33,530 bases of DNA from contig JALWQB010000272.1 of the NCBI GenBank assembly GCA_026994795.1, forward strand, positions 1 to 33,530, written 5' to 3'. Both the position numbers and the translations under genes were made by a program. Each line of letters begins with the position of its first letter. The stretch's first letter is position 1. Below are positions 9,111-32,751 of this stretch, piece by piece. Source of the DNA: Deltaproteobacteria bacterium (lineage in GTDB: Bacteria; Desulfobacterota; Dissulfuribacteria; Dissulfuribacterales; Dissulfuribacteraceae). The notes under the pieces are model-generated. The model was not told the DNA's origin, made no database searches, and was given only the letters and a program-made list of their open reading frames with translations.

Positions 9111-9122
9111 ATATAAATAAAA

Positions 9123-14764: not shown

Positions 14765-14797
14765 TAGTTTCAATTACAAAGGAGCATTAAAGCAAAA

Positions 14798-15553: not shown

Positions 15554-15557
15554 TTGT

Positions 15558-15992: not shown

Positions 15993-16004
15993 AAGAGGTA
16001 TTTT

Positions 16005-17765
16005 ATGAGCAGTGAGCAGGCTGGGGGAAAAACAGCGTTTGTATATAGCACTGATGAGTGGGCCTATGTTGGTTGTGCCATTGAGAGGTATTTCAAGCAT
16101 CTTTATAATGTGGAAGTCAATAAAATAAAAATAAATCTTGATGACCCATCTTTTTCAACTAATATTCACAACTATAATATCCTATTGACACCATTATTTG
16201 AAAAGAGCAATCCCTTTGGTCTGCAACTTATAAATAGATTAAGAATAAAAGAGGCCAACTATAAAATATTACCCGTCTTTTTAGTAAGTCATTCAAAAGA
16301 CATCCCGCAGTATTTCAATCAACATCTTAAAATGACCGATGGGGCAAGAAAAGTAATAAAAAATCCTGATTTTGGAGATATAAGAAAAGCTATTTTCCTT
16401 GCCGAGATAATGTTTGAAGATCGTAAGTTCATTAACTTAATAGATTTGTCCGAAGAAGATGCTCTTCCTAAATTAAAAGAAATTATTCTTGATAATAAAA
16501 TTAAGCCGTTCCCTGAATGTTACTTAAAAAACTTTTATGCCTCATTTATCAATTACTATGAGCCCTTTAATTTCAAAGAGCATTTAACTACCTTAAATGT
16601 TGATCAAGAGCTATTTCGTGTCCCCTCTTATTGCAATTCCAATGAATCAAAAGATCATAACAATAGCAAGCAACTTTCGCGTTATGTTAACGCTTTTCAC
16701 AATGCATTAAACAAAGAGGACAAAAATAGCATTTATATTTTTCTTAAAATAGCAGATACCATTTATAGTGAGCTCAACAATTTTAGAAGATTTACAAAAA
16801 AGAAAGAAAGGGGAGATGCCCACCGAGTGCATCTTGAACTCTTCCGTTCTCCAGTCCCATTTCCACTTCAAGAATTGATTCACGCTAAAAATAAATTAAA
16901 AAAACTTGACCATAAGGTAAAATTGCTATTAATAGACAACAAACCTGAGACAAAAAAAAGTTCTTTAGAGAAGATATTTGAAAAATATCGCATTAAGGAT
17001 AAACTTTGTATTGACGATAAATCCGCTGAGGAATTCAACTTTAAAGATTTCTTAGAGAAAAAAAATTATAGAGATGAAATATATAATAAGGTAAAAGATG
17101 CCCACTTTATTCTCCTTGATTTCTTTCTGGATGAAAATAATACTTACCTTGCATTTGATTTTGTAAGGGAAATTTGTGAATACAAAAAACAAAAAGGGGA
17201 CTATCAGACTACATGGTTTTTTATCACCTCAGCAGTTTATGACTCTGTAGTAAAATACTCACAGAGCGGGGTTCTGGCAGAATATTATGAATCTGCTGTA
17301 GTCAATTCAGGAGATGACCCCACAAATGAAAAGAGAGAGATTATTTTCTTGTATAAATTATTAACCTTTATACAAGCAAGGATAGAAAACTTCAATCATT
17401 GTAAAAATCAGATTGAGAGCAAGATGTTTGCTTCAAGGCTTTGTCTGAATTGCAAAGATAAAAGTGAAAAATTTAATGTGTGCCTAAAACAAATTAGAAC
17501 TTATATCAAGAGATATCTTACTGAATATGAAACAATGCATTCAATATGCTATGCTACTCCAGAAGAAGCCGAAAGGTATCTAAACATTATTGATCTTATA
17601 GATATATTAATACAATACTTTCAATGGCTACCTGATGCAGACTGGCGAGTTATCCAGCACCATATTGAGGCTATCAATTCCAGATTAAAGGCCATAGATG
17701 ATAGCAAAATGTTCAGTTGCTCTTATATTCTTGAGGAAATCAAGGAAAGGAGCGATATATTTTGA
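16005..17765 (+). CDS. Receiver-containing protein, probably with two receiver-type domains
   Basis: This is a 586-residue soluble protein. A near-canonical receiver is visible at about 304-430: KLLLIDN (D311 of the acid pocket), ILLDFFLD with D372 as phosphoacceptor, FFITSA with T408/S409, and K417. The first 140 residues show a second receiver-like order (AFVYSTDEW, ILLTPLFE, LPVFLVSHS) with T62 near the phosphoacceptor position, so a pseudo-receiver. The C-terminal region is helical with a CLNCKDKSEKFNVC segment. No DNA-binding or enzymatic output is seen. AGAGGT at 15994-15999 supports the start. It is the best candidate target of the kinase-like protein encoded upstream. Confidence 0.55.
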   Translation: MSSEQAGGKTAFVYSTDEWAYVGCAIERYFKHLYNVEVNKIKINLDDPSFSTNIHNYNILLTPLFEKSNPFGLQLINRLRIKEANYKILPVFLVSHSKDIPQYFNQHLKMTDGARKVIKNPDFGDIRKAIFLAEIMFEDRKFINLIDLSEEDALPKLKEIILDNKIKPFPECYLKNFYASFINYYEPFNFKEHLTTLNVDQELFRVPSYCNSNESKDHNNSKQLSRYVNAFHNALNKEDKNSIYIFLKIADTIYSELNNFRRFTKKKERGDAHRVHLELFRSPVPFPLQELIHAKNKLKKLDHKVKLLLIDNKPETKKSSLEKIFEKYRIKDKLCIDDKSAEEFNFKDFLEKKNYRDEIYNKVKDAHFILLDFFLDENNTYLAFDFVREICEYKKQKGDYQTTWFFITSAVYDSVVKYSQSGVLAEYYESAVVNSGDDPTNEKREIIFLYKLLTFIQARIENFNHCKNQIESKMFASRLCLNCKDKSEKFNVCLKQIRTYIKRYLTEYETMHSICYATPEEAERYLNIIDLIDILIQYFQWLPDADWRVIQHHIEAINSRLKAIDDSKMFSCSYILEEIKERSDIF

Positions 17766-18271
17766 TACAAATAAAGAAATTCACAATAAAAAGAGCAATA
17801 GAAAATTTTTTAAAGAGCAGGATTCCTGTTTTATTTGTAATGCTTATTACTGCACTTATAGTTATAGGCATTTGGGCGGGTTTGAATTTGAGTATTCCCT
17901 TACAACAATTAGGCCCATTGTGCGTTTCAACAATGGCAGCAGTTTCTATGCTTTCCTTTGCCTTCTTTCCTTATATAATTATCACCCTTAAGCCATCGGA
18001 TACCCCTCAGGACTACAATTCAATAACAATGTGGATTGACGGACGAAGGTTTGAGTATGATAAAAATTCTCTTCCACTACAAGAAAAGGTCATATTGTGG
18101 AGAAAAGGTATATATGAGATAATAGTCTGTTGCAATTACTGTGATTCCAGTGGTAATTCTCCTAATAAAATTCTTAAAGAGGACAGGATAGAAGTCTGGT
18201 CAAGACGCTGCCAATCCAAGACAATCGCTTTGAATAAAGAAGAGTCTAAAAGAGAAACTGAGAAGGATTAG
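17762..18271 (+). CDS. Small membrane protein with two transmembrane helices
   Basis: This 169-residue protein starts with TTG at 17762, overlapping the upstream TGA by four bases, with AAGGAG upstream at 17743-17748. Two hydrophobic helices (about 22-44 and 51-76) form a hairpin, followed by a soluble beta-rich domain with three cysteines (VCCNYC) and a charged tail. Coupling to the receiver protein suggests it may anchor the relay at the membrane. No family is recognised. Confidence 0.6.
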   Translation: MIQIKKFTIKRAIENFLKSRIPVLFVMLITALIVIGIWAGLNLSIPLQQLGPLCVSTMAAVSMLSFAFFPYIIITLKPSDTPQDYNSITMWIDGRRFEYDKNSLPLQEKVILWRKGIYEIIVCCNYCDSSGNSPNKILKEDRIEVWSRRCQSKTIALNKEESKRETEKD

Positions 18272-18277
18272 GCCTGC

Positions 18278-20173
18278 ATGATAGGCAACTACTATTTTTT
18301 TGAAAAAAAGAAATTTAAGAGCGCTTCAGGGCTTAAAAAAGATGTATATTATGAATATAAGGGTTATCTTGCCAGAAATAATGAAGGAAGGCTTTATTGT
18401 CCTATTATTTTACATTTTGGCAGAGATGAAATCTTCTTTTTATACATAGACAAAGATGGAAAGCCCTATAAGGTATTTACCCTTCCAGTGGCAGAAGGGG
18501 AATTAAACCAGGGGCGTCTTTCTCAAAAGATAGAGGCATACTGGAAGATGCCTTTATGGAAGCCAATAACCAAATCAGCAGGGGATAACAACCATCAATT
18601 CTTTATTGAGACATCACTGAGTCATCTGAGTTACTTTTTGACCATCTATGGGATTGGCGTAGAAAAAGATAGTTCTAAAAATGATGTTTTTGTCCGTAGG
18701 CTTATCCTTGAAGATGGCTCTCCTTATGACAATTATTTGCAGATTAACATCAAAGACACAGGGAGAAAACTTATATTTGCTTTTTTGAATAGAGAAGAGG
18801 GATACGGTTTTGATAATGACCATAATGAGATATGGGAATTGTTTGAAGATGCAGAAGACGGCAATGAGAGGATTAAGACTAATTATATAAATTTTCGCAA
18901 ATTATTTCTTGATTTTTTATATGATCTTGAAAATTCCACCACTTTTGACGATGAAAATTTTTTGTTGCTCCAGCCTGTCTTACAGAACAACAAGCTCATC
19001 TTTGCCCTTAGTAAAAAATGCAGGTTCTATCATGTCCTGACATTTATAGATGGATACATTCAGGGATACAAGATGCCTGACCTTCCAAAGGAATACAGGA
19101 CAGTTGAGAAGGCGTGGCTCAATGTCTGTTTTTCTGAACAATACAGGGAGGTCTTCATATCCCGAGATTCGGTATTTTTACCCCCTGAGGACGAGGTGCG
19201 CAATGTAATCTTCAATGCAAATGTTATATTAAAAGATAATCTTTTAAAGAGAAATGAGCTCTTGACCAAAGAGGATATACCGCTCAGGAATCAGGCATCC
19301 ACCTTTTTTTTAAGACGCTATCTCATATTTGATGCCTTTGATATATTGATGTCAAGGGCATGGACATTTACCCTGTTTTTGCTCTTTGCCTTTACCCCAT
19401 TCAGCGATTACCTGCTAAAAAGGTGGGATGCGTGCAAAGACATTGCAGGGACATACACAGCAGTTATGCCTGTCTTTATGCTTGGGGCATGGGGCTGGTA
19501 TTACTACAGGCACAGGATAAACCTGTTTAAGCTCATTCTGCCAAGGCTTTTTCTGGGTATATTGCTTGGATGGGCGGCCTTTTGGGGTGGAGAGGACTCA
19601 TGGAAGGCGGCCCTGATAGCCTCTGGGCCAAAAGTGATTATATTAGACCTCTTTCTTTTGATTTTGCTTTATCTTTACATCTTTACGGATATTAGGAATA
19701 AACTCGTCCTGATCTCTGACTGGCAGGTGGCCAAGAGGGCATTCTGGCTTGTGTTTTTCGCAATGATAATATCTCTGGTGCAGGGGCATTATGTCATACA
19801 GTTTAAGGCAAAGACAATGATTGAAAACTCAGGTTTTTTAGAGACATTGACCCAAGGGCTCTCTGAGACCAAGAGTATTTCCGTCCTGAAAGGCATAAAG
19901 GAGATAAGAGAAAAGGCAAAGAAGGGATTGAACTCAAAGGAGTGTAAAAAAGGGCCTGTTGAGCTTGCTGATTATGAAAAACATAATGGCGACTTCATCT
20001 TGGGTTGGGATGGTCTTACCATCGCTGTAGATAATTACAGTGAAATAGACCGTTCTCTCTATAAGGTAAGATATATATGGTCTGTCCTTTTATCGCAGTT
20101 TTTGATGTCAATCCTCATTGGCATAATACTGCAACTCATCTGGGAGGATAGGCCGATTACTGAACCGCTGTAA
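18278..20173 (+). CDS. Membrane protein: large soluble N-terminal region plus six C-terminal helices
   Basis: This 631-residue protein has about 350 N-terminal soluble residues, beta-rich and without a signal peptide, so probably cytoplasmic. Hydrophobic helices then follow (WTFTLFLLFAF, AVMPVFMLGAWGW, LFLGILLGWAAFW, IILDLFLLILLYLYIF, FWLVFFAMIISL and a last one near the C-terminus). A loop of about 100 residues between the fifth and sixth helices probably lies outside. AGAAGGAT at 18261-18268 supports the ATG. Base composition is less AT-rich than in the genes before it. It is the last gene before the envelope operon and could link the two regions. No family is recognised. Confidence 0.6.
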   Translation: MIGNYYFFEKKKFKSASGLKKDVYYEYKGYLARNNEGRLYCPIILHFGRDEIFFLYIDKDGKPYKVFTLPVAEGELNQGRLSQKIEAYWKMPLWKPITKSAGDNNHQFFIETSLSHLSYFLTIYGIGVEKDSSKNDVFVRRLILEDGSPYDNYLQINIKDTGRKLIFAFLNREEGYGFDNDHNEIWELFEDAEDGNERIKTNYINFRKLFLDFLYDLENSTTFDDENFLLLQPVLQNNKLIFALSKKCRFYHVLTFIDGYIQGYKMPDLPKEYRTVEKAWLNVCFSEQYREVFISRDSVFLPPEDEVRNVIFNANVILKDNLLKRNELLTKEDIPLRNQASTFFLRRYLIFDAFDILMSRAWTFTLFLLFAFTPFSDYLLKRWDACKDIAGTYTAVMPVFMLGAWGWYYYRHRINLFKLILPRLFLGILLGWAAFWGGEDSWKAALIASGPKVIILDLFLLILLYLYIFTDIRNKLVLISDWQVAKRAFWLVFFAMIISLVQGHYVIQFKAKTMIENSGFLETLTQGLSETKSISVLKGIKEIREKAKKGLNSKECKKGPVELADYEKHNGDFILGWDGLTIAVDNYSEIDRSLYKVRYIWSVLLSQFLMSILIGIILQLIWEDRPITEPL

Positions 20174-20393: not shown

Positions 20394-21302
20394 ATGAAAC
20401 GGCTATTTTTATGCGCGGTAGTGTTTTTGTGTGCATCCTTTTCTATGGCGTATGCCTATACAGAGCCAGAGGGCATAGCCATTATGAAGGTGCAGAACAG
20501 GGTTAAGGCCGAACTTAGCTCTCTTGGGCAATCTGCTCAGGTGAAAAAGGTCTATAAGCTGACCAAGAAGATCGCAACGCAGGCCGAGACCTACAACTCT
20601 ATCTGCGGCGATCGCGTAGGGGCGCGCTTTCACAAAGATGATTCATGCGGCAAGATGTTAAAAGAACTCAGGCAGACATATATGGATTTGATGGGCAATG
20701 TAAAGAATATACTGCCAGAACTCATACGGAGGCTGGATGAGGCAGCCCAAAGCTCTGCTGCCATCTTTGTATCTCATGTAGATAGTAACCTCACGCCTGC
20801 ACAGCTATATGAACAGCTCATGGAGAGGGAGACAAGTGATGAGGTTCCAGGCAATGAGGAAGAGGCAGCAGTAGAGATTGAGGATTTTGACAGATTTCTG
20901 GATACAGGTTCTGATATACTGGAGGAGAGCGGCTTTGGAGACTTTATGGCAAGTATGCAGGCACTGATTGGGCCTGATACAATGGCAGACAGGCCAGAGA
21001 TAGTAAGTTCAGCCTATATGTTCCTCAATTTCCACAGCGCTTCACAGCGGGTGAAAAAGTTTTTAAACAGCTTAGAACAACGGTATGAAATGCTTCGTTG
21101 GTCAGAAGATTATGGCCGTCTTGCTGGCAGCATCACCCCTGATGTGCAGAGGGTGGCTAAATTGCTGTCAGATTACTTTAATATGCCGCGTATCAAGATA
21201 AAGTCAGTGAGGTCGTCAGGCAGGCCAGCGGCCTATCGTAAATCCACCAGCAGGTCAAGGGGCATTAGTAAAAGAAATCTGGGTTATGCGCCAAGGCGAT
21301 AA
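20394..21302 (+). CDS. Secreted helical protein with a basic tail
   Basis: GGAGGT at 20384-20389 places the start at ATG 20394, giving 302 residues rather than an upstream TTG. A clear Sec signal (MKRLFLCAVVFLCASFSMAYA, cleavage after about residue 21) precedes a mostly helical mature domain with an acidic middle (about 145-180). A strongly basic C-terminal 40 residues, rich in Arg, Lys and Ser, could contact peptidoglycan, lipid A or nucleic acid. No family is recognised. It opens the envelope operon, 22 bases before the lipoprotein gene. Confidence 0.7.
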   Translation: MKRLFLCAVVFLCASFSMAYAYTEPEGIAIMKVQNRVKAELSSLGQSAQVKKVYKLTKKIATQAETYNSICGDRVGARFHKDDSCGKMLKELRQTYMDLMGNVKNILPELIRRLDEAAQSSAAIFVSHVDSNLTPAQLYEQLMERETSDEVPGNEEEAAVEIEDFDRFLDTGSDILEESGFGDFMASMQALIGPDTMADRPEIVSSAYMFLNFHSASQRVKKFLNSLEQRYEMLRWSEDYGRLAGSITPDVQRVAKLLSDYFNMPRIKIKSVRSSGRPAAYRKSTSRSRGISKRNLGYAPRR

Positions 21303-21324
21303 ATAAAGAGAAGGGAGGAAGAAC

Positions 21325-21903
21325 ATGAAAAGGGTGGCATTTATATTCTTTATTGTTGCATTGACGGCAGGATTGGTCTCATGCCTTCACAGGAACAGGG
21401 CAGTAATCGTGCAGGACAACAACACTATGGAAACGACCATTGCTGCCTGCACTGAGATAGACTGTATATCATCCTTTGACCTGAAGACTGCCTGCATTCA
21501 GGCAAGGGAGGTTATAGAGGCGCAAAGCTATGACAAAAAGCTCCTTGAAAAGGTCTTTGAAAAGCTGGTTAAGATAGCTACCCATGCGCCCAGCCACGAT
21601 AATCCAGAGGTCATCTGGAATAATTTTGTTCAGGCGCTCATAAATTCTGCAAAGGTCCCAAGGGACGAAATCGTCTATCTGTGGAATGCCTATTTTTCAT
21701 CACGGTTTGTAAGCCTTCCTGACAATGGGGGCATGAATGAATTTTGTATGGAGTTAAACACAATTAAAAGAAAACTTGCACGGGAGTATCACCTGAAAAA
21801 AATAGGCTTTAAGGCAGCAGATATGAATAATCCCGCTTCACTGGCAAAACGCGCTGCTGAGGTATTCAACTGCATGAGAACGGCCTGCAGCCTGCAATAC
21901 TGA
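21325..21903 (+). CDS. Lipoprotein, paralogue of the next gene product
   Basis: This 192-residue protein has a lipoprotein signal ending in LVSC (C20). The residue after Cys is Leu, which fits outer-membrane sorting. The mature domain is helical. Residues of the pattern PEV..F...L....K(V/L)P.D.(I/V)..L....F...FVSL...EF...N..KR...GF(K/R)A recur in the downstream 208-residue protein, so the two are paralogues. GGGAGGAAG precedes the ATG. Function is unknown; a pair of related proteins with different anchors may bridge inner and outer membranes. Confidence 0.72.
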   Translation: MKRVAFIFFIVALTAGLVSCLHRNRAVIVQDNNTMETTIAACTEIDCISSFDLKTACIQAREVIEAQSYDKKLLEKVFEKLVKIATHAPSHDNPEVIWNNFVQALINSAKVPRDEIVYLWNAYFSSRFVSLPDNGGMNEFCMELNTIKRKLAREYHLKKIGFKAADMNNPASLAKRAAEVFNCMRTACSLQY

Positions 21904-21924
21904 TACGGCACAAAAGGAGGGGGT

Positions 21925-22551
21925 GTGCGTGGCCTGTATATACTTGGGGCATCGGCGCTTATTGCAGTAATATTAGGGGCAGCAGGGCTCTGGACAGGCA
22001 TATTGCACATAAAGGGACATAACCCCCTGCCCTCCTCCACCACCCCTCAGCCCGACACTTTTTTTAAGGTCAATGCCACAAAAGCCAGCATAAAAAAGAC
22101 TGATATAAAGAGGGAAACTAATCCATTAACATCTACATCTAAACCAGTTGAGGTCAGTAAAAAGGGAGCGCCCACCCTTCCACCCTTTGATGAGGCATTG
22201 ACCTATCTTAAAAGCCTTCAATCCTCGTCTCTTTCCCCCCCTGAGGTGGAGGCGGCATTCAAGAGATTTCTTGCAGAGACCCTAAAGCTCCCTCAAGACC
22301 AAGTAAATACACTATACAAGATGGCGTTCTGGAAGGGGTTTGTCTCGTTACAGCGCCGCTGGGGGCATGAAGAGGTGGATGAATTCGTTCAGACATTTAA
22401 TGCTGAAAAAAGGCTCAAGGTGGCTGGATTCAGGGCAAAGGGGCTTAAGCTCTTTACAGGGGTTATCAAGGAGGCTGATGCCTCATTTATGGAGATGAAA
22501 AAGGGCATTGAAAAGATAAAAGAGAGGCAGGGAGAGGCAGGAAGAAGATAA
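21925..22551 (+). CDS. Membrane-anchored paralogue of the lipoprotein
   Basis: It starts with GTG at 21925 behind AAAGGAGGGGG and has 208 residues. One N-terminal hydrophobic helix (about 3-28, no lipobox Cys) anchors it in the inner membrane. A Pro/Thr/Lys-rich linker (about 33-85) reaches into the periplasm, and a helical domain (about 87-175) matches the preceding lipoprotein. The tail is rich in Lys, Glu and Arg. The shared domain with different anchors suggests local duplication followed by specialisation. Confidence 0.68.
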   Translation: MRGLYILGASALIAVILGAAGLWTGILHIKGHNPLPSSTTPQPDTFFKVNATKASIKKTDIKRETNPLTSTSKPVEVSKKGAPTLPPFDEALTYLKSLQSSSLSPPEVEAAFKRFLAETLKLPQDQVNTLYKMAFWKGFVSLQRRWGHEEVDEFVQTFNAEKRLKVAGFRAKGLKLFTGVIKEADASFMEMKKGIEKIKERQGEAGRR

Positions 22552-22572
22552 TGAGCAGATTAGGAGAATAAT

Positions 22573-23118
22573 ATGAGGTCGCTTTCGCTCATACTGATTT
22601 TATCCATTATATGGACTGTTATATTTGTGGCATTTGGGGTATTTAGCGGATGGCTGACCATAACTGTAGATATTCCATGGTTAATACACCCGTTTTCATT
22701 CATGTATAGACACCTTCGTCTGTCCATTGTGCCGTTTGGCATGTTGTTCCTCTACTATATCTATCTTGTGTTTCGCATAAAGTTCCTTTTAAATGAAAAG
22801 ACCACCCGTATCTCTACCCTCTCATACTACAACAGGTTGCTCAACACCACTATCTCACTATTCTTTGGCGTAGGGGTTATCTGGACGGCAATTGGCATGG
22901 AGACTGCCCTTATGAATGCCCTTACATCAAATACAGGGGCATCTGGACATGAGCAGATGAGCGCATGGGAGCTTTTGAATCGGCTGGTAAACGGTGGGCT
23001 TCTCCTTGCGCTGAGCACCACGGTCTTTGGCGGGATATGCGGATACCTCCTGAGGCTCTTTAAGATCATACTCATAGGAGAGGGCTGGGACAGTTTTATG
23101 TTAGGAGACAGCAGGTGA
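22573..23118 (+). CDS. TolQ/ExbB/MotA-like membrane protein (diverged)
   Basis: This 181-residue protein has four hydrophobic helices (about 4-28, 49-71, 88-113, 136-168). The last two read like the conserved pair of TolQ/ExbB/MotA proteins: a G.GVIWTAIGME segment and, after a loop, GGLLLALSTTVFGG (family pattern GI..AL.TT..GL). These subunits form the pentameric proton or sodium channel of rotary motors in the inner membrane. It is shorter than standard TolQ and lacks the usual large cytoplasmic loop, so the assignment rests on the helix 3/4 motif and on the TolR-like gene that follows. AGGAGAAT supports the start. Confidence 0.6.
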   Translation: MRSLSLILILSIIWTVIFVAFGVFSGWLTITVDIPWLIHPFSFMYRHLRLSIVPFGMLFLYYIYLVFRIKFLLNEKTTRISTLSYYNRLLNTTISLFFGVGVIWTAIGMETALMNALTSNTGASGHEQMSAWELLNRLVNGGLLLALSTTVFGGICGYLLRLFKIILIGEGWDSFMLGDSR

Positions 23119-23939
23119 TGGCGGAGAGGAAGCTGAACATAAATCTCCTGCTCAATGAAGAAGGCGGTGAAGAGCACCTTTTAGAGACAGATATTATGCG
23201 TTTTATGGCCATAATTGGCATTGTCTTCTGGATTATATTCTCACTGGTAAAGACCATGCCACTTTATCCCCAAAAGGATGATAACACGCGAAAACAGGTT
23301 GCCATCACCCCTGCCATTTCTACAGTTGCCTCAAAGGCGATAAAAAAGACACTGGAGAAATCAGCGCAAAAACCTGTAGAAAAACCAGTAAAAAAACAGA
23401 CAGAAGAGAGCCGTTTTATGCCTGTAAAAGAGGCTCTAAAGCCTGTTAAGCCAATTGCAAAACAGGGAGCAAAGAGGGCTAAAAAGAAGTCCGCAGCAAG
23501 GCGCGCTTTTAGGAGGAGAAGGGGCATTACCATTGAATTTCGTTCAAGAGACGATCTGCTGGAGCTTATGAAGGCAGGGAGGGTTCAGTTATATGCCCTT
23601 GTAAGGGCGCCTGGCTTTAATTTTATATTCAAGGGCGAGAACCAGTCTGGCAATCTGCGGTTCAATATGGCAGATTCACTGCCCAATGACCTGTGGGAGA
23701 TGAAAAGCGGCAATGCCCATGACGAATTTCTTTCCATGTTAAAGACCAAGAACCCACCGCTGGATGCCTTTCCTGAAAAACGCATATTTGTAAAATTCTA
23801 TGATAAAGGGCTTGAGAAGGATATTGATGCCACACTCCAGCGCCTGAGGGCAGAGAAAAAGGATGGGGTCATATATATATGCAAGGAGGGAACGATTAAG
23901 TATGAGGGCTTTAAGGAAGATGAGGGCGATGATGAATAG
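23118..23939 (+). CDS. TolR/ExbD/MotB-like single-span partner
   Basis: The upstream TGA (23116-23118) overlaps the ATG at 23118, so the pair is translationally coupled; the GTG three bases earlier is less likely. The 273-residue protein has a short cytoplasmic N-terminus, one membrane helix (about 27-47), a long Lys/Pro/Ala-rich linker (about 50-135) and a periplasmic alpha/beta domain ending in GVIYICKEGTIKYEGF, reminiscent of ExbD/TolR. The usual Asp of ExbD/TolR helices is not at its expected place: the helix has D26 at its cytoplasmic edge only. It is probably the stator partner of the TolQ-like protein. Confidence 0.55.
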   Translation: MAERKLNINLLLNEEGGEEHLLETDIMRFMAIIGIVFWIIFSLVKTMPLYPQKDDNTRKQVAITPAISTVASKAIKKTLEKSAQKPVEKPVKKQTEESRFMPVKEALKPVKPIAKQGAKRAKKKSAARRAFRRRRGITIEFRSRDDLLELMKAGRVQLYALVRAPGFNFIFKGENQSGNLRFNMADSLPNDLWEMKSGNAHDEFLSMLKTKNPPLDAFPEKRIFVKFYDKGLEKDIDATLQRLRAEKKDGVIYICKEGTIKYEGFKEDEGDDE

Positions 23940-24795
23940 AATGGGACAAATGAACTGCATGGCAAGAGAGGCAGGGGCATGGCTTTTTTTTGCGTTGTTT
24001 ATGGGGGCTATAGTATGTTCAGTCATGTTACAACAAGTGGCTGAGGCATACATTGAAGACAGGTTTGAGGTAGAGGCGCGCCTTAGTGAGGCGACATCTT
24101 CCAGCCTCCATCCTCAGGGCTATCCATATCAAAAGTTCTTTGAGAGCTCATGCAGCAAATATGGCGTTCCCCTTCCCATTGCCATTGCTGTTGCAAGGGG
24201 AGAATCCTTTTTCGCAGCAGATGCAAGGAGCCCAAAGGGGGCAATCGGCGTTATGCAGGTCATGTCCCAGACTGGCCGTCAATATGGATACAAACCCATT
24301 GAGCTATATGAGCCTCAGAAGAATATTGATGCAGGCGTCCATTATCTTGCAGACCTTTACAAGGACTTTAATCAGGATATGTTCAAGGCACTGGCTGCCT
24401 ACTATTGCGGGCCTAACAGGATAAAAGGCGCTGAGACCATGCCTGAGGAGTGTCAAGAATATGTGTTCTATATTGATACCCATCTACAAAAGGTTATGAA
24501 ATTTGCAGAGAAGCGCCAGCCTGAAAAGACAATTGCCAGAAATAAATTTTTTACGGTTGCTACCTTTGATTTTATTATAAACGCCAAGAATTACATAAAG
24601 ATATTGTCAGAAAAACTGCCTGCTCTTGAAATTGACCTCAAGCGTGAGGAAAAGACAAAAGATGGCCGTTTCAGCCTGAAATATCATGTAATTGCATGGT
24701 TTGTCCATGAAGATGAGCAAACGAGCATTTGTAAAAACATAAACCGTGTTACAGGCTTTGCCATGTGCGGAGCAAAGGAGGAAGAGAAGAAATAG
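23902..24795 (+). CDS. Membrane-anchored lytic transglycosylase (Slt/GH23 type)
   Basis: AAGGAGGG at 23883-23890 favours ATG 23902, giving 297 residues and a 38-base overlap with the TolR-like gene. An N-terminal helix (about 24-46) is a signal anchor. The GH23 core follows: catalytic E101 in ARGESFF, then SPKGAIGVMQVMSQT (109-123), NIDAGVHYLADL and AAYYCGPNRI. The enzyme cleaves the MurNAc-GlcNAc bond, leaving 1,6-anhydro ends, and would open the cell wall for a trans-envelope assembly. The C-terminal 100 residues are not part of the GH23 core and may dock partners. The YCGPN form replaces the usual YNAGP. Confidence 0.88.
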   Translation: MRALRKMRAMMNRMGQMNCMAREAGAWLFFALFMGAIVCSVMLQQVAEAYIEDRFEVEARLSEATSSSLHPQGYPYQKFFESSCSKYGVPLPIAIAVARGESFFAADARSPKGAIGVMQVMSQTGRQYGYKPIELYEPQKNIDAGVHYLADLYKDFNQDMFKALAAYYCGPNRIKGAETMPEECQEYVFYIDTHLQKVMKFAEKRQPEKTIARNKFFTVATFDFIINAKNYIKILSEKLPALEIDLKREEKTKDGRFSLKYHVIAWFVHEDEQTSICKNINRVTGFAMCGAKEEEKK

Positions 24796-24797
24796 CC

Positions 24798-26999
24798 ATG
24801 TCTATCATGTCTATAAACATGTCTATAAAGATACTGAGACAGTATGGGGCAGTGTTGTTCATGCGGTCAATTGTAGCTGTAGCTCTCCTGATGGTCTGGG
24901 GGATGAGCGCCTCTTCTGCTATGGCGAAAAATGTCATTATCGTTATAGACTCATCAGGCAGTATAAAGCACAAGGACCCAAAGGGATACAGAAAGATGGC
25001 GGCGCAGGCCCTTGTATCCCTGCTTGACCCCCATGACCTTGTGGCCATAGAGCAGTTTGATTCCAAGGGCCTTGTGCTGCAGGACTGGATAGAGGCGGTA
25101 AATACCCAGCAGATATTTAAGGCAATTTCAAGGGCAGGGAAAAATGGCCAGTACACAGACTTTAGGGCAGCGCTTGAGACTGCCATCGGGCTTGTAAAGA
25201 GGCTCAAATCCACTGATGAGACAGTGGTGCTCCTGTTTACAGACGGAGAGTTTGACCCTGATATATACAGCGATAGATATGCCCCATACAATCTTACGGG
25301 CTTTCAGTCAAGAAAGGACAGGAAACTGGCATCTAAAAAGATACTTCCAAAGGCGCAGCGTATAATTGAAGAAGAGCTACTACCACAGTTCAGGGAATAT
25401 GGGGTTCAGATATTCACACTTGCCTTCAGGATAAAGGCCAAAGACAGACAATATCTCAAAATGCTCTCTGATGCAACAACGCGTTTTCCATCTGAAAGAC
25501 ACCATTTCTATGTCCAGAGCCCAATGGACTTGATGGATGCCTTCTTCAGCCTCCTTGCCTACCTTGATTATGGCCATATTGTATTCAGGGATGAATATGC
25601 CTTAGACCGCCAGAGCCCTCCAAGATGCAGGACTGTATATCTTGACAGCTTCTTTATGAATGCCTCATTTATTGTGGCAGCGGATTCGCGTGATATAAGG
25701 GTGAAGCTCTCAGGTTATCAGTCTATGGATGGCACACATGAATTTTTGACTATCATCCCCATAAAAAGAGACATATCAGGGAAAAAGAACATCTGCATTG
25801 AAGGAAGCGGCCGTTTTAAGACCCTACTTGTTGGAAAGGACAACTTCAAGATAAGGGTCAAAGGGCTTAAGGCACGATACCTTCCAGGGGAAAGGATAAA
25901 GGCGATGATAGAGCTGGCGCCTGCTACTAAAGGGGCATCTGTAACGCTCAATGGGCTAAGGCCAGTTTGTCGCATAATGCCGCTAAAAAGACAGAAGGAA
26001 AAGGCTAAACGCATTAAAAATATCAAAGAGATTACTTTAACGCCTGTGAGTAAGGGGGATGTAAGAGAATTTTCCCTTGACTATCAGCCTGAGATTAGCG
26101 GGGACTATCTTTTGACCGCCCTTATCAAGGGAAGGGACAGTGGCGGCCATCCCATTATCCCGAGAAAGAGCAGGCAATATCGTTTCACTGTAGAAAAGGG
26201 CTTTTTCATAGATGCCGACAGGGTGAGCCTTGGCACTGTTGATTCCTCTAAAAATATCACTGCCACTGTAAGGATGTTTGCCATAGATACAAGCCCGAGG
26301 ACCGTAACTGTAAATGGCAGGTTGAGCGCAGCAACTGCGTGCGACCCATCCCTTGAGCCTCAGCGCATACCTCATATCAAGCCGCTGACCATAAAGACAA
26401 CACCAGGAACTTATACGCCCCTTAAACTCGCTCTTGTCATCCCTAAAGACCACTGTTGGGGTGATTTTCAGATAGAGGTAACTGCCACTACTGATACGGG
26501 CAGTTCTGATAAGGTGCTCCTCACCCTCCATATCCCGAGCCTGTATGAAAAACTTACCATACCTGTTCTCATTGGGCTGGTTATAGCGATGGCAGTCTTC
26601 ATCTTTCTGCTGATGGGCTGGCTGTCAGTCCCATTGCCAAGGGGCAGTCTGGAAGTATCGGATGAAGATGGAAACATACGGATATTTAACCTGAGAAGAC
26701 ACAAAAAAGGACTGTCCCGATATCTCTGGGCACGGAACAGGCTTATGATAGGACCTGATGAGGAGGCGGATATCCGCCTTGAAAACTGTCCTGCTGCATT
26801 TACCCTCAAATTTTACAGGCGAAAGAGGGTCTATCTCATAATCCACAAGGGCACCCTGACCCTGCTGAAAGACGGGGAAGATGGGGAAGAAGGACAAATA
26901 TTGACCACTGCCATACAAATAGACAGTGGGGCATCCTGGAAGGCAAACCCGCAGGATGGACAAGAAAAGAGCGCTTATGAATTCAATTTTAATTACTGA
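24798..26999 (+). CDS. Membrane-anchored VWA protein with FHA-like C-terminal domain
   Basis: It has 733 residues from ATG 24798; a later in-frame ATG at 24861 is an alternative start. A signal peptide ends at ..SASSAMA. The VWA domain has an intact MIDAS (IVIDSSGS, the Thr of QYTDFRAAL, FTDGEFDPD). Two to three beta-sandwich-like regions fill about 290-590. A membrane helix (about 594-615) is followed by a cytoplasmic domain of about 115 residues with RLMIGPDEEADIRLEN, which resembles an FHA domain lacking the phosphothreonine-binding Ser and His. VWA domains bind proteins through a metal ion, so it probably joins periplasmic partners to cytoplasmic ones. Confidence 0.82.
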   Translation: MSIMSINMSIKILRQYGAVLFMRSIVAVALLMVWGMSASSAMAKNVIIVIDSSGSIKHKDPKGYRKMAAQALVSLLDPHDLVAIEQFDSKGLVLQDWIEAVNTQQIFKAISRAGKNGQYTDFRAALETAIGLVKRLKSTDETVVLLFTDGEFDPDIYSDRYAPYNLTGFQSRKDRKLASKKILPKAQRIIEEELLPQFREYGVQIFTLAFRIKAKDRQYLKMLSDATTRFPSERHHFYVQSPMDLMDAFFSLLAYLDYGHIVFRDEYALDRQSPPRCRTVYLDSFFMNASFIVAADSRDIRVKLSGYQSMDGTHEFLTIIPIKRDISGKKNICIEGSGRFKTLLVGKDNFKIRVKGLKARYLPGERIKAMIELAPATKGASVTLNGLRPVCRIMPLKRQKEKAKRIKNIKEITLTPVSKGDVREFSLDYQPEISGDYLLTALIKGRDSGGHPIIPRKSRQYRFTVEKGFFIDADRVSLGTVDSSKNITATVRMFAIDTSPRTVTVNGRLSAATACDPSLEPQRIPHIKPLTIKTTPGTYTPLKLALVIPKDHCWGDFQIEVTATTDTGSSDKVLLTLHIPSLYEKLTIPVLIGLVIAMAVFIFLLMGWLSVPLPRGSLEVSDEDGNIRIFNLRRHKKGLSRYLWARNRLMIGPDEEADIRLENCPAAFTLKFYRRKRVYLIIHKGTLTLLKDGEDGEEGQILTTAIQIDSGASWKANPQDGQEKSAYEFNFNY

Positions 27000-27011
27000 T
27001 TTAATTACTGA
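26988..27011. repeat. 12-bp perfect tandem duplication across a stop codon
   Basis: TTTAATTACTGA at 26988-26999 is repeated exactly at 27000-27011. The first copy ends in the VWA stop codon, so the second supplies an extra in-frame stop before the next ribosome binding site (AAGGGAG at 27011-27017). It looks like a recent replication slippage event. Confidence 0.8.
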
Positions 27012-27025
27012 AGGGAGATAACGCT

Positions 27026-29785
27026 ATGAAACCAACTCTTTACATAGGCATGGGTGGATTTGGAAGCGAGATAGTAAGACTGCTCAAAGAAAACTTGGAT
27101 AAGGGCGATACCAGAGAAACACATACCTGCCAGTTCCTTGCACTGGATACAAAGGCCCTTGATGTCAATGATAAACTACAGGATACTGAATATGTTGAGT
27201 GCATCGGGATAAATATAAAAGAGACCATTGAATATGAGGGCGAACAGTTAAAGTGGTTTAAAGAGCTTGTAAACGAGTTGCCTGAACATGAAAGGATAAA
27301 GGATGGTGCGGATGCCAATAGATTGATAGGGAGGCTGGCGCTCAGGGCAAGGACAAATGTGAGCAAATTCATCAATAAGCTATCTTCAGCCTGTTCTGAG
27401 CTGTTTCAATTTGATACAAGCCAGACCATTGATGCTGTCAAGATATATTTCATATCCTCAATAACCGGGGGTACTGGTTCAGGGTGTCTGCTTGATGTCA
27501 TGGGCATTACCCGCGCAGTGATTGATCAGACCATTTCGCAGGGCGTGGAGATTGAAATGAACGCCATAATCTTACCTGCTGATATAGTGGAGCTAAGGCT
27601 ATCGCCAACTTCAAGGGCAAAAATATTTGCCAATACCTATGCTACATTAAAGGAGCTGCATTATTTTTGGGCAGGCAATAAGATAAAAGAGCTAATATGC
27701 AGCAAGGAACATCCATGCACAGGCATTACGGAGATGGAGTTGTCAAGGCGGGCGCTTCCCACAGTAATTTACTATGTGAGCCGTATGAACGAGGAGGGAA
27801 AGGCTATATGTGATGATGATACCCAGATCATGAACATGATAGTGAACTTTCTTTTGGCTGAACTTAAGCCTGAGGTGGAAGAAAAATTTATTGGCGGCAG
27901 AATGCCAAATCCCTACTCAAAAGAAAATACAAAAGAGATGACTGACCTGCACGGACACTATAATCTGCTGTCATCCTTTTCTGTATTCAAATTTACCATA
28001 CCATATAAGGAATTGAAGGGGTGCCTCTATGATATGCTTATGAGGCACTGTATAGAGAGAGAGCTAAAACCATCATTGGGCATGGAGGCAACAGAGAAGG
28101 ATGTTAGCAGTTGGTTCAGGGACAGTCACCTTTCTGAGATAGATTCTGATGAACTGCAGGAATCTCTTAGAAGAGATATTAAATGGAATATTAGCATGGA
28201 TGCCCCTTCTAATGGATTGAATCTGGATAATATTATATCAAAACACCTGAAAAAGATAGATGATAACGCTAGAAATTTTGAAAAAGATATAAAGAAAAGG
28301 CTCAAGGATAAAGTGCATAAGTGCATCCAGTCTTATTCATTGAGGACTGCATATGATTTTATGGCTGTCCTTATGGAGCTAATAGAGCGTCATAAGGAGG
28401 CGCTAAATAAGGAGATTGCTGATACGGAAAAACGGGTAAAATTCAGGTTAAAGACGGTAGATAATGCCATAGAGGACATAAAGGAGGCAAAAGAAGGATG
28501 GTCAATATTCTTCTGGAAGAAAGAGGAGAGGATTTATGAGGCGGAGCAGAATTTTCAAAATGTTCTAAAGAAATGTGGTAAAGAGAAAATAAAATTACAT
28601 TCCCAGCAAAAGGCATTGTCCGTTTATGAAAATCTGATTGATAATATCAAAAAAGATATAAGAGAGATAGAGGCTATACTACAGTATTTCAATGGCGCTT
28701 TAAAAAACATTTCACGCAGAGAAAGGGCGAGATATGGACATTTTAAAAAGAGGCTGGAGGTTGATGCCTCAAGCAATCTAACTAATGAGATATGTCTCAT
28801 AAATCTCAAAAGATTTGAGGAGATAAAAAAGGGGTGGAAAGACGCCTTTTCTAAAAACGCAGATATTGTTGATAGCCTGCGGGAGAAATTACTCCACTTT
28901 GTAGCTACCAACAAGATGCAAGGAGAAGACAAGGACATCATTGCAAGGTTGTGGGAAGAAATATTTGCTGGGCAAGATGCCGGCCAAAGGTCTCCAATAA
29001 GGGACTTTATAGAGCAAGAGATACGCCAGCTTTCCATACCTGAATATATAAACAGTCTGAGGGATGACCAAACACAAATGACAGCGCTTAAATATATTGT
29101 CAAAGAGCTCATCAGCCCGAGATACCCGCTGAGGATGGAAGTAGGGCCTTATCCTACTACAATAATGGTCTTAAAAAGGGATGATACCCCTGCAACTGAT
29201 ATATACAGGCTCATGGGTCTTGATCCAAATGATATTACAGAGCTTAAATTGACTCACAATGGCGATGACTTTTCATGGCAATTTATTGTGATCCGACACG
29301 GCTATTCCATAGAGTCGGGTCTGTATCTAAAAAAATATTATGCCTCTTTTTGCTCCCAGATGGAGCTATATGAGGAAAAACATAGCATGTTCCCACCTCA
29401 TGTATTTCCTGATGTGTTAAAACACGGGGAAGAACTTATAAAAGAGACCAGTGATTTTGAAAGACTATTTAGTATTGGATTGGCGTTTGGCTATATAGAA
29501 CGGAGCGGGAATTCCTATTCCATCGTATTATCAGATGGAACAAAAATGCCCCTTGAATCGGGCTTAGATAAGGCCATAAATGTCTTTGTATCAGATATGG
29601 CCTCAAAAGAGGCTGTAAGAAAACAGAGGGATGAGTTCATTAATAGAAATGGCCTTTCAAACTACAGGGATAAACTGGAGGAGGCTGTAGAAAGATTCAA
29701 AAAAGAGGACAAAAGAGGCCATTTTGATAAGATAGTATCTTACATAAATGAAGAGATAAAATGGGTGAAGAAAAAATTGTCTTAA
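27026..29785 (+). CDS. Tubulin/FtsZ-like protein with long coiled-coil region
   Basis: This is a 919-residue cytoplasmic protein. The N-terminus YIGMGGFGSEIV (6-17) matches the first nucleotide loop of FtsZ/tubulin relatives. ITGGTGSGCLLDVMG (146-160) is the tubulin signature GGGTG(S/T)G with one Gly replaced by Thr. This fits the large bacterial tubulin-like (Tubulin_2-type) proteins rather than FtsZ itself. Residues about 400-600 are strongly coiled-coil. The last 300 residues form a separate alpha/beta region. Family members hydrolyse GTP and can form filaments; related genes have been found beside VWA genes and proposed to act in membrane remodelling. It follows the VWA gene after 26 bases. 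Confidence 0.82.
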   Translation: MKPTLYIGMGGFGSEIVRLLKENLDKGDTRETHTCQFLALDTKALDVNDKLQDTEYVECIGINIKETIEYEGEQLKWFKELVNELPEHERIKDGADANRLIGRLALRARTNVSKFINKLSSACSELFQFDTSQTIDAVKIYFISSITGGTGSGCLLDVMGITRAVIDQTISQGVEIEMNAIILPADIVELRLSPTSRAKIFANTYATLKELHYFWAGNKIKELICSKEHPCTGITEMELSRRALPTVIYYVSRMNEEGKAICDDDTQIMNMIVNFLLAELKPEVEEKFIGGRMPNPYSKENTKEMTDLHGHYNLLSSFSVFKFTIPYKELKGCLYDMLMRHCIERELKPSLGMEATEKDVSSWFRDSHLSEIDSDELQESLRRDIKWNISMDAPSNGLNLDNIISKHLKKIDDNARNFEKDIKKRLKDKVHKCIQSYSLRTAYDFMAVLMELIERHKEALNKEIADTEKRVKFRLKTVDNAIEDIKEAKEGWSIFFWKKEERIYEAEQNFQNVLKKCGKEKIKLHSQQKALSVYENLIDNIKKDIREIEAILQYFNGALKNISRRERARYGHFKKRLEVDASSNLTNEICLINLKRFEEIKKGWKDAFSKNADIVDSLREKLLHFVATNKMQGEDKDIIARLWEEIFAGQDAGQRSPIRDFIEQEIRQLSIPEYINSLRDDQTQMTALKYIVKELISPRYPLRMEVGPYPTTIMVLKRDDTPATDIYRLMGLDPNDITELKLTHNGDDFSWQFIVIRHGYSIESGLYLKKYYASFCSQMELYEEKHSMFPPHVFPDVLKHGEELIKETSDFERLFSIGLAFGYIERSGNSYSIVLSDGTKMPLESGLDKAINVFVSDMASKEAVRKQRDEFINRNGLSNYRDKLEEAVERFKKEDKRGHFDKIVSYINEEIKWVKKKLS

Positions 29786-29796
29786 GAAGAGGTAAT

Positions 29797-31404
29797 ATGA
29801 TGGCTTTTGACAATATCTTAAGAATCATAAGAGAACGCAGGCTTGAAGGGCTTTTAAACATAGAGAGTGGGGCTGGTTTCTGCCCTACTCTGATGATGAG
29901 TAATACCAATACGTGGAGCAAACATATTGTATGGATAAAGGTTGACTTCCTTGGGCTCAAGCCCGAATGGGATGGGTGTTTTCCGTGGTTCTATCTTGAC
30001 AATCAAATAGATAACAAGCAGCTTGAAAGGTTTTTGCACATAAACACCATTAGAGAAGTTAGAAAGGATAATGTTAAGATCATTGATAATATTCGTCAAT
30101 TGGTTGCCTTTATTGACATAGGTGGTAAAGATAGCAGGCAGGATGAGATAGAAGCTGCAACAAAGTGGATGGACGATTTCAACAATGCTCTCCATAAAAA
30201 ACTTGGACAAGATGGAGACAATTTTAAGCGGTGGGCAATTGCGCTACTTAGGGATGGGGAAGATAAGACTGATGAGATCACCAAACTTAGAGGCCATTTT
30301 GACCATATTATCGTTATCAGCCCATCAAATGGAGACTATGTTATAACAAGCGCCGAGCAGCAGCGACTTGCCATCTGGTGTCTTGCGTTTATTATTTTAG
30401 GGCCTGCTCATTCAGGGGATTTTTATGAATACTTTAACAGAGACTGCCCTTATCTGGGTGCAGCAGGCTGCATCTTTCGCGTGCCAGTTAAAAAGATGCT
30501 CTTAGTCCATGGCATGTCTGAGGCATTAAAGGGATTTAATGACTGGCTCATAAGACGCCCCGCCACTACTACTACTACTACCCTGTCCCCCAACGACAAC
30601 GATATCTTAGAAACGGATAGCCTGATAACAGAAGGGGAATTTGAGGAGGCATCTGAAGAGGCATCTATAGTGGAACTGGATGACAGGTTGATGGATATCA
30701 TAAAGAAGAAAGGGCTTTGTGAGGCAATAGTATATCTGGAAGGGCTTAAAAAGACTGATGATTCTTCAGGGGATTCTTCTATTATAACCTTGCGTCTTGA
30801 TGGGCTTAAATCCCTTGAAAAACGACTGGGCGAACTAAGCGGCCTGATTCCCAAAAAGGCTGATGACCTGTTTAATGAGCAGGAAAACTCCCTTGAAATC
30901 GTTCTTAATCTAAAGCCAGATGACCTGCTGGACTGTAGTAACCAAGAAGGCATAGTCCGTAACAACTCTGCCTTATATGAGGAGTTGCTCCCATATTTCT
31001 TCAGGTTTGCACAGGACGGCTATAATCAGCTCAACCAGTGGGAGACATACCTTATGGAGGGGCTTGAAGGCATTGCAGTGGATGTGATAGAGAGGTGTCA
31101 TGTAAGAGAGGACTTCTGTATATTAGAGCAGGAGGAGTTCAAGAGACCTGATGAATTGTGGAAAAGAGATGTAAGGCTGTATATCCGCTCCCCTTTTGCC
31201 AAGACATATTCCAGCCATAAGGACAGGCCTGTAGTTGCCACATTTCTGCCAGTTAATGACAGATATTATCTGGAACAATGGGAAGGGCAATGGAAAGAGC
31301 GCATTAAGGATGGATTGGACCCAAGAGTTCACTTGACCATCCCTTCTATCTGTGGGCATTTTGGTATCCTGGCACTTTATAACCTTCAAGAAAAGAGGCC
31401 ATGA
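29797..31404 (+). CDS. Unrecognised protein coupled to the tubulin-like gene
   Basis: The start is ATG 29797 or 29800 behind AAGAAGAGG, just after the tubulin-like stop, giving 535 residues. It has no signal peptide or membrane helix, so it is cytoplasmic. The N-terminal 250 residues have alternating strands and helices (LVAFIDIGGKD, HIIVISPSNGDYVI). A run of six Thr encoded by (ACT)5ACC at 30565-30582 plus an acidic stretch form a linker. A helical domain follows, then a beta-rich end. No family is recognised. Its place after the GTPase-like gene suggests a direct partner or regulator. Confidence 0.65.
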   Translation: MMAFDNILRIIRERRLEGLLNIESGAGFCPTLMMSNTNTWSKHIVWIKVDFLGLKPEWDGCFPWFYLDNQIDNKQLERFLHINTIREVRKDNVKIIDNIRQLVAFIDIGGKDSRQDEIEAATKWMDDFNNALHKKLGQDGDNFKRWAIALLRDGEDKTDEITKLRGHFDHIIVISPSNGDYVITSAEQQRLAIWCLAFIILGPAHSGDFYEYFNRDCPYLGAAGCIFRVPVKKMLLVHGMSEALKGFNDWLIRRPATTTTTTLSPNDNDILETDSLITEGEFEEASEEASIVELDDRLMDIIKKKGLCEAIVYLEGLKKTDDSSGDSSIITLRLDGLKSLEKRLGELSGLIPKKADDLFNEQENSLEIVLNLKPDDLLDCSNQEGIVRNNSALYEELLPYFFRFAQDGYNQLNQWETYLMEGLEGIAVDVIERCHVREDFCILEQEEFKRPDELWKRDVRLYIRSPFAKTYSSHKDRPVVATFLPVNDRYYLEQWEGQWKERIKDGLDPRVHLTIPSICGHFGILALYNLQEKRP

Positions 31405-32603
31405 CCAGTCTTTCTGCACTGTTGTATCTCATCATCTGGCCAATTGTAACACGAGCCCTGTTCACACGGAATATGGGCACCCTTGAAAATCTCCTATATG
31501 GGGGATTTTGTCTCTATTTTATTATCCTTACCTTCTGTGCTGTGTTTGCAAGGATAATACAGTCTGATGAACCGCCAGATGAGCCAAGACCCCTATTCAT
31601 AAGGGCATTTTGTCCTGTCTCAAGGGCAAGAAGACGCCTTATAGGACTTACCATATTTACCGCATCTTCAGCCATTATGCTTGTCCTTAATCTTTATGGT
31701 CAACTTAGCGATTTTAGATTCTCTCTTATTGCCCCCTGCATGTTCGCTGGCATTGGAGGCCTTTTGGGTATTCACTTATGCCCCCCAATAGAGAGCGAGA
31801 AGAAAACCACTATACAAAAACAGTCTCTACAAAAAATTCCACACAAAAAAGAGCCACTTCCAAAAGAACCTGCCCCCAAATGCCCTGCAACCCCTCCACA
31901 AGACCTGCCTCAATCAGCCCCTACGCATATTAGCAATAACATCTCTTTATGGGAGATTCCATTCACTATCAATATGTTAGATAATACCAACAAATTACAG
32001 ACCGTCCTTCCTGTCCCTGTGCGTAATAAAGAGCTTAAGAGGGTCATAAACATCCGAAATACTGTTGGCCCCTATGAGTTTGAAGAAATAGAATATAAAT
32101 GGCTCCAGATGGCCTTAATAGAGGGCAATTCCCATGAGTTAAAACACATCGCCACCACCATGATCTTCACAGCCAAAAGGCATATCCCTGAGCTTTCTGT
32201 AAAAGACTTAGTAGGGTGTGCATCGTCTCTGGTCTCAGGCATCATTGAGTGCAGGCCAATTAATGAAAAAAAGGTGGTGTCATGGGAACACCTTTGTCTC
32301 CCGCTTGAGGTGTTAAAGACCCGCAAGGCCTGTCTTCTGGAGCTTATGGCCCTTTACGGGGTCCTCATTCACCACCTCGTTGTAGGGAGCGAAATACACC
32401 TCTTTATCCCGCCATTAGACCAGATGACGGGCAACTGGGCGCTAACGGTGCGTGGGCCATTTGAAAGGGATTATTTGAGCTTCAGGTTTAAGGACTTTGC
32501 CCTTGTGCCAGAGCCCCATGAGGAAAGTATAAAGAGGCCTGTGGGATGGGAAATATGCCTTGATAAACACGGCTCTGTGAAGGGAAAGGTTGTAGAAGGC
32601 TAA
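31401..32603 (+). CDS. Membrane protein with Pro/Lys linker and soluble C-terminal domain
   Basis: The ATG overlaps the preceding TGA (ATGA, 31401-31404). In 400 residues there are about four hydrophobic helices in the first 130 (around 5-22, 28-52, 79-98 and 106-126), a Pro/Lys/Gln-rich linker (about 130-175) and a soluble alpha/beta domain to the end. The short loops and the length of the linker suggest that the soluble domain is held away from the membrane, probably in the cytoplasm, where it could recruit the tubulin-like filament. No family is recognised. It closes the envelope operon. Confidence 0.65.
   Translation: MTSLSALLYLIIWPIVTRALFTRNMGTLENLLYGGFCLYFIILTFCAVFARIIQSDEPPDEPRPLFIRAFCPVSRARRRLIGLTIFTASSAIMLVLNLYGQLSDFRFSLIAPCMFAGIGGLLGIHLCPPIESEKKTTIQKQSLQKIPHKKEPLPKEPAPKCPATPPQDLPQSAPTHISNNISLWEIPFTINMLDNTNKLQTVLPVPVRNKELKRVINIRNTVGPYEFEEIEYKWLQMALIEGNSHELKHIATTMIFTAKRHIPELSVKDLVGCASSLVSGIIECRPINEKKVVSWEHLCLPLEVLKTRKACLLELMALYGVLIHHLVVGSEIHLFIPPLDQMTGNWALTVRGPFERDYLSFRFKDFALVPEPHEESIKRPVGWEICLDKHGSVKGKVVEG
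31535..31564 (+). repeat. Direct repeat, copy 1 (inside the 400-residue membrane protein gene)
   Basis: This 30-base segment (31535-31564) recurs with one mismatch at 32604-32633. In this copy it encodes CAVFARIIQ within the second membrane helix. Confidence 0.8.
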
Positions 32604-32633
32604 CTGTGCTGTGTTTGCAAGAATAATACAGTC
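32604..32633 (+). repeat. Direct repeat, copy 2 (directly after the stop codon)
   Basis: Copy 2 matches 31535-31564 at 29 of 30 bases. The only change is AGG to AGA, silent in the frame of copy 1, and that frame then meets TAG at 32638-32640. It looks like a remnant of a duplicated gene segment rather than random similarity. Confidence 0.8.
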
Positions 32634-32751
32634 CGCATAGCCACCACAGCAGGGGTACCTGTGAACCCCCTTGAACTACTCACCCCACATTTTTCAGACG
32701 ATTTCACAAAGTTTAGACTGGACTTAATGCAAAAAATAAAAAAAATTATTC
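32634..32751. other. Gene-poor stretch after the envelope operon
   Basis: No intact gene is seen here. On the plus strand, in frame after the 32601-32603 stop, about 60 codons stay open to TAA at 32784-32786 and read in part like protein (VNPLELLTPHFSDDFTKF), perhaps a decayed gene. A short hairpin, GGGGT at 32652-32656 with ACCCC at 32665-32669 (8-base loop), could slow transcription but lacks a T run. Confidence 0.3.

Follow-up and report, generated by a model that had tools for sequence, protein, structure and literature searches.

FtsZl1 tubulin-like proteins are encoded in clusters with VWA proteins, for which a role in membrane remodelling has been proposed (Makarova and Koonin, 2010; PMC2875224). 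Tubulin and vWA genes also occur in the GTPase-centric GAP1-N2 systems, for which a role in conflict is predicted (Kaur et al., 2020; PMC7159879). No experimental function of the FtsZl1 tubulins turned up in the literature searched, and no paper was found that ties these tubulins experimentally to phage defence, subscription journals lying outside the search. The locus described here was found in a stretch of 33,530 nucleotides (the window) from a Deltaproteobacteria bacterium of the family Dissulfuribacteraceae (assembly GCA_026994795.1, contig JALWQB010000272.1, which the window covers entirely). It comprises ten genes (g1–g10, 20394–32603), with an FtsZl1 gene and a VWA gene among them, and a block of eight genes upstream. 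The origin of this locus of about 22 kb (10280–32603) is very probably composite: two gene sets that are separate in other bacteria, a wall-motor set (g1–g6) and a VWA-tubulin set (g7–g10), are fused here into one operon.

The tubulin-like gene g8 (27026–29785, + strand, as are all genes of the locus) belongs to the FtsZl1 family by hidden Markov model (HMM) comparison (PF13809, Tubulin_2, E 9e-32, 111 bits against a cut-off of 27). It carries the GTP-binding T4-type loop GGTGSG (within ITGGTGSG, of the GGGTG(S/T)G type), whose glycines are invariant in five aligned rows. Directly upstream, g7 (24798–26999, +) encodes a periplasmic VWA protein (PF13519, VWA_2, E 6e-11, 43 bits against a cut-off of 27) with a signal sequence and one transmembrane (TM) helix by hydropathy, a cytoplasmic tail that looks FHA-like by eye, and a complete metal-ion-dependent adhesion site (MIDAS; D62, S64, S66, T131 and D160 in the reading from 24765). 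Family membership of g8, the adjoining VWA gene and the presence of additional membrane proteins are shared with the described FtsZl1/VWA clusters. Unlike those, the window has no detected GTPase, protein kinase or OmpA protein, and it has instead partners of the ~730-amino-acid (aa) and transglutaminase-like types, an upstream signalling block and a joined motor and wall operon. With the GAP1-N2 systems the locus shares a tubulin-like protein with a long C-terminal region and a membrane vWA protein whose vWA and beta-rich domains are extracytoplasmic. However, neither a GTPase nor GAP1 was detected in g1–g10 or in the eight upstream proteins, and the other partners differ; as it shows no GTPase, the window falls outside the definition of a GAP1-N2 system. 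By analogy, it could nevertheless work in a similar way, with an NTP-dependent polymer under the membrane and an extracytoplasmic VWA sensor.

The ten genes form a tight unit in which neighbouring reading frames overlap or stand 21–29 nt apart, and a gap of 220 bp separates g1 from the upstream block. The likelier start of g6 is the ATG at 23932, overlapping the g5 stop by 8 nt (the preliminary description of this DNA had used 23863). For g7, which can also be read from 24765, the likelier start is the ATG at 24798; with that start, g7 begins 2 nt past the g6 stop, a spacing that suggests a shared transcript. The preliminary description had reported ten co-directional genes with short gaps or overlaps, whose products span all layers of the envelope, and had linked them to the known association of tubulin and VWA genes. 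All of this is borne out, as are its assignments of the tubulin-like, VWA and GH23 proteins, of the lipoprotein and of the secreted basic protein. On the other hand, the test it set for itself, recurrence of the ten-gene set in other genomes, went against it, g1–g6 and g7–g10 being found only apart. Its boundaries (20394–32603) were also too narrow: the neighbours shared with the tubulin part begin at about 10280, in an upstream block held in common with Persephonella that it had missed, and g1–g6 are a module of their own.

The genes g7–g10 are a divergent copy of a four-gene cassette, centred on VWA and tubulin, of other phyla. In this quartet the order is VWA, tubulin, a protein of ~730 aa (alignment A2) and a four-TM, transglutaminase-like protein of ~350 aa (alignment A3). 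The order is kept in four other genomes of Desulfobacterota, Nitrospirota, Aquificota and Acidobacteriota, which are metagenome-assembled genomes (MAGs) labelled Deltaproteobacteria (G140, JAGXTA010000151), Nitrospirae, Persephonella and Acidobacteriia. A contig scan with a single tubulin protein gave nothing, and the same scan with a two-row alignment gave five loci. The quartet VWA homologues are 27–31% identical to g7 over the full length, and in a tree of 20 FtsZl1 relatives the five quartet tubulins group as a single clade (100/100), g8 being a long branch. By position and a weak profile match, g9 (29761–31404, +) is a shortened, divergent counterpart of the ~730-aa protein (hhalign against A2, E 0.0018, controls 0.1–0.5, collinear), the TM part of which it lacks. 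Similarly, g10 (31401–32603, +), with four to five hydrophobic segments by hydropathy, is placed as the counterpart of the four-TM transglutaminase-like protein by position and by its TM part (against A3, E 0.009, controls 0.05–0.6, collinear), while a domain match for the C-terminal, transglutaminase half was unsupported. The proteins of A2 and A3 had no match among the neighbours of other FtsZl1 loci. A model of the ~730-aa protein (pLDDT 56) had no convincing match in the PDB; a match to the dynamin LeoA (E 0.005) was not used.

Several further observations concern the quartet and its relatives. A tubulin gene of another genome (G1144, on C21) was considered as part of a further quartet and rejected as not being one. 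At L012:1-1016, a fragment of a quartet tubulin is followed by the start of a gene of the ~730-aa family and then by unrelated genes, as in a decaying quartet. Two more distant FtsZl1 tubulins of Nitrospirota (L035 and L036) share conserved neighbours, genes for small membrane and lipoprotein-like proteins. Straight after the g10 stop codon, a stretch of 43 nt from within g10 (31535–31577) is repeated at 32604–32646 with 84% identity, possibly as the scar of a duplication or recombination.

The other half of the run is found on its own elsewhere. When g5 and g1 were searched in 89 relatives, one genome gave clear matches, that of a member of the same family but of another genus (G029), in which homologues of all of g1–g6 lie in the same order on one strand. 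These are followed by genes for a 457-aa lipoprotein and a DUF6844 protein; the stretch around them contains no VWA gene, and the G029 genome gave no tubulin match. Since g1–g6 are collinear there without VWA or tubulin, they form a six-gene operon in their own right within this bacterial family. Likewise, no homologue of g1–g6 was present in the sequenced stretches around the four other quartets, two of which (G140 and Acidobacteriia) end at a contig end just upstream. The product of g1 (20394–21302, +; G029 homologue, E 3e-25) is secreted, with a signal peptide and a basic tail. g2 (21325–21903, +; E 1e-37) is a lipoprotein with the lipobox LVSC, and g3 (21925–22551, +; E 1e-15) is its TM-anchored paralogue (hhalign E 5e-5). 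A TM-anchored lytic transglycosylase of the SLT/GH23 type is encoded by g6 (23932–24795, +; E 5e-56), as indicated by PF01464 (E 4e-24, 85 bits against a cut-off of 21) and by the catalytic-Glu motif ARGESF.

Between them lie g4 (22573–23118, +; G029 homologue, E 6e-66), a probable TolQ/ExbB/ZorA-like motor subunit with four hydrophobic segments, and g5 (23115–23939, +; E 1e-47), a probable TolR/ZorB-like partner with a single TM helix. No Pfam, NCBIfam or PADLOC model matched g4 significantly, and ZorA was the only motor model to touch it (E 0.27 and 0.08). PF01618 (MotA_ExbB), run over the whole genome, reported two other copies and did not report g4 at E<=1. Alignment of g4 with ExbB and MotA in hhalign gave only short, non-significant matches. 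A single-sequence AlphaFold2 model of g4 (pLDDT 61), compared by Foldseek with 350,542 PDB chains, had ZorA as its best match (Foldseek probability 0.85), followed mainly by TolQ and ExbB, all non-significant at E>=0.23. The membrane motifs LLNTTI-xx-FFGVGVIWTA-x-GME-x-ALM and LVNGGLLLALSTTV-x-GG-x-CGYLL of g4 are kept in G029. The same is true of LLETD-x-MRF-x-AIIGIVFWIIF in g5, which places an Asp where the TM helix starts in the two sequences compared. The TolQ/TolR pair of the preliminary description is thus plausible from its top fold matches, conserved motifs and TM-proximal Asp, and unproven for want of a PF01618 match; g4 and g5 are likely to be motor-like, though outside PF01618. In comparison with the Zorya system, the probable motor pair is shared, and ZorA is the nearest, non-significant model and fold for g4, but g5 shows no OmpA-type peptidoglycan-binding domain and no ZorC, ZorD or ZorE was detected with PADLOC or Pfam.

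Upstream of the run, the block at 10280–20173 probably belongs with the tubulin system. In the Persephonella MAG, homologues of u733, u541 and u144, then counterparts of u586 and u631, stand upstream of the quartet in the order of the window. The first gene, u733 (10280–12481, +), encodes a histidine-kinase-like protein of GHKL type, with H-box-, N-box- and ATP-lid-like motifs by eye, and its C-terminus (571–732) is 46% identical to its positional equivalent in Persephonella; Pfam gave no match, and neither did a histidine kinase profile built from two kinases only. The soluble protein u541 (12595–14220, +) has a Persephonella homologue (L011:127-1551, E 1e-46) and was present in one of 390 Desulfobacterota genomes, namely its own. 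The small protein u144 (15558–15992, +) is the best-conserved upstream part (47% identity to L011:2727-3164, E 2e-38); it ends in a natural HHHHHH (15972–15989), and its Persephonella homologue in HHSY. By a pattern seen by eye, u586 (16005–17765, +) is weakly receiver-like and, with no Pfam match, it is paired with L011:3112-4509 by position only. The two proteins had no significant match to each other, and receiver profiles were the best alignment of both, at a weak E of 0.004–0.03 (controls 0.28–0.5). The remaining members are u184 (14210–14764, +), an acidic protein, and u251 (14798–15553, +), both recorded as open reading frames with no relative found, and the two-TM protein (by hydropathy) u169 (17762–18271, +).

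The last gene of the block, u631 (18278–20173, +), encodes a membrane protein that resembles PADLOC Mem_01 proteins in its membrane domain and in its QLIWEDRPITEPL tail; its Persephonella counterpart is recognized by position and a common C-terminal tail. Mem_01-type proteins encoded in type III CRISPR loci matched u631 with phmmer (E 1e-6 and 4e-7) and with hhalign (E 3e-9), while the Mem_01 HMM itself gave E 0.05. In those loci, from two Desulfobacterota, the Mem_01 proteins (L085:2071-3822 and L087:13901-15836) are each paired with a Cas_APE2256 (CARF-type) protein, and one locus also has RT-Cas1. The description of Mem_01 (PDLC01155), whose membrane domain and QLxWExxxTEPL tail u631 has, resembles that of Cam3 (PMC11229360), a likeness of description only. 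Unlike Mem_01 of type III CRISPR, u631 has a different N-terminal domain and kinase- and receiver-like neighbours instead of CARF, and no cas family was found among the tested window proteins. Two observations touch the edges of this block. In Persephonella, a gene for a pyridoxal-phosphate-dependent decarboxylase (L011:5830-7707) lies between the u631-like gene and the VWA gene, where the window has g1–g6; this position is possibly a variable slot. At 5695–10262, very AT-rich genes (GC content at third codon positions, GC3, of 15–20%), the last stopping 18 nt short of u733, encode a dehydrogenase-like and an NAD-synthase-like protein (both by eye), a DUF1152 protein and a periplasmic binding protein, and may be part of the same imported block as u733 onward. 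Rfam gave no match.

FtsZl1 relatives of any kind are rare, being found in 3/395, 4/296, 2/136 and 11/297 genomes of four sets, and most of them are distant. Three of the four other quartets adjoin immune-type genes. Downstream of the Acidobacteriia quartet come genes for two NACHT-type proteins, and ~1 kb away from the G140 quartet there is a type III-B CRISPR locus that includes RT-Cas1 and a Mem_01 protein. The Nitrospirae quartet stands downstream of an integrase and of a group of tRNA genes, the last of them for tRNA-Lys, where GC drops from 57% to 43–50%. After the quartet come genes for a DUF4062 protein (PDC-S60, E 1e-25) and for a protein of TIR-STAND-WD40 type, all within a tRNA-adjacent integrated element; an attachment-site repeat was sought at this element and not found. 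Around FtsZl1 genes outside quartets, 18 stretches were searched with the immune-type proteins as queries; 17 had no match, and in the other (L046) only the RT-Cas1 query matched, to an apparent group II intron reverse transcriptase. One non-quartet stretch (L049) has cas3- and cas5-like genes by eye.

A plasmid search with the g8 tubulin gave no match, and one with the Nitrospirae quartet tubulin gave three distant relatives. On three plasmids (Thermus, Meiothermus and Allomeiothermus), brxL follows distant vWA and tubulin-like genes and a gene for a hypothetical protein of ~680 aa, and on one of them it comes after DUF1156 and Swt1-HEPN genes, so that these Thermaceae genes are a candidate defence cluster; tubulin goes unmentioned in a survey of bacteriophage exclusion (BREX) systems (PMC12839542). 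The order vWA, tubulin, large protein and the defence neighbours are shared with the quartets, but the Thermaceae tubulin is distant (about 28% over <1/3 of its length), a relation of the large protein to g9 is unsupported (E 0.013), and no transglutaminase gene or signalling block was seen. A phage search with the Nitrospirae quartet tubulin gave no relative, and viral contigs had no match for the tubulin or u541; matches of the transglutaminase alignment on viral contigs were rejected as secreted proteins with only that domain in common.

The explanation favoured here is an envelope conflict system, based on the tubulin and gated by a signal, that took over a wall-motor operon. This reading is given about even weight, and the same holds for a defence or conflict role of the tubulin half taken by itself. 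The kinase- and receiver-like proteins would detect infection or stress on the envelope and work together with u631, as a membrane relay or effector. The signal would switch GTP-dependent assembly of g8 beneath the inner membrane, with g9 and g10 linking g8 to the membrane and g7 linking it to a periplasmic ligand through the MIDAS site. In this lineage, assembly of g8 would also control or position the probable ion-driven motor g4/g5 and the wall-cutting g6 as a lineage-specific output, with local opening or remodelling of the envelope as the result of activation. The likeliest purpose would be conflict with mobile elements, phages included, by arrest, lysis or blocked release. A stronger version, in which a tubulin polymer, gated by a phospho-relay-like sensor together with a CRISPR-type membrane protein and coupled across the inner membrane to a VWA sensor, drives motor and hydrolase as an envelope-breaking effector in this lineage, would make the locus an antiviral or conflict machine of a new class, and is put forward tentatively.

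Secretion, vesicles, predation and defence had all been offered as functions in the preliminary description; genomic context favours defence or conflict, which is unproven. No secretion-system family was matched in g1–g10. A single dedicated ten-gene trans-envelope machine, for secretion or predation, would agree with the coverage of the envelope layers and the operon structure, but the halves occur apart, the full set was in no other locus found, and this explanation is very improbable. Two or three adjacent operons without common function, with the tubulin/VWA cassette and an AT-rich island inserted by chance beside g1–g6, would fit modules that are separable and unlike in base composition. 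Such a chance adjacency is nonetheless improbable in view of the 2-nt spacing of g6 and g7 and the recurrence, in another phylum, of the association of upstream block and quartet. A somewhat better case, though still an unlikely one, can be made for a membrane-remodelling or vesicle machine of normal physiology, in which tubulin filaments and VWA shape the membrane while motor and transglycosylase open the wall. The published FtsZl1 proposal (PMC2875224), the parts in each envelope layer and the wall enzyme within the same operon here speak for it, whereas rare, patchy presence and immune-type neighbours fit a housekeeping role poorly.

Several points weigh against the favoured conflict system. 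Everything beyond gene identity is inferred from sequence, and neither the kinase and receiver calls (u733, u586) nor the motor call for g4/g5 reached HMM significance. Only five quartets are available, all on MAG contigs and several of them cut by a contig end, and g1–g6 were found together with a quartet in no other locus. The base composition of the upstream block (GC3 15–34%, u631 44%) is unlike that of g1–g10 (42–55%), so the block may be a separate or later arrival in the window; GC3 of the Persephonella locus is more even. The control with non-quartet neighbours is biased, because its queries derive from quartet loci. Moreover, defence genes cluster by nature, and the neighbours of the quartets may be passengers.

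The locus and its relatives define a small monophyletic FtsZl1 subfamily: its partners are fixed, it has what looks like an input module, and its neighbours are of immune type. For the family, this turns the general proposal of membrane remodelling into specific, testable questions, and the locus shows that an operon that reads as a single machine can be two fused modules.

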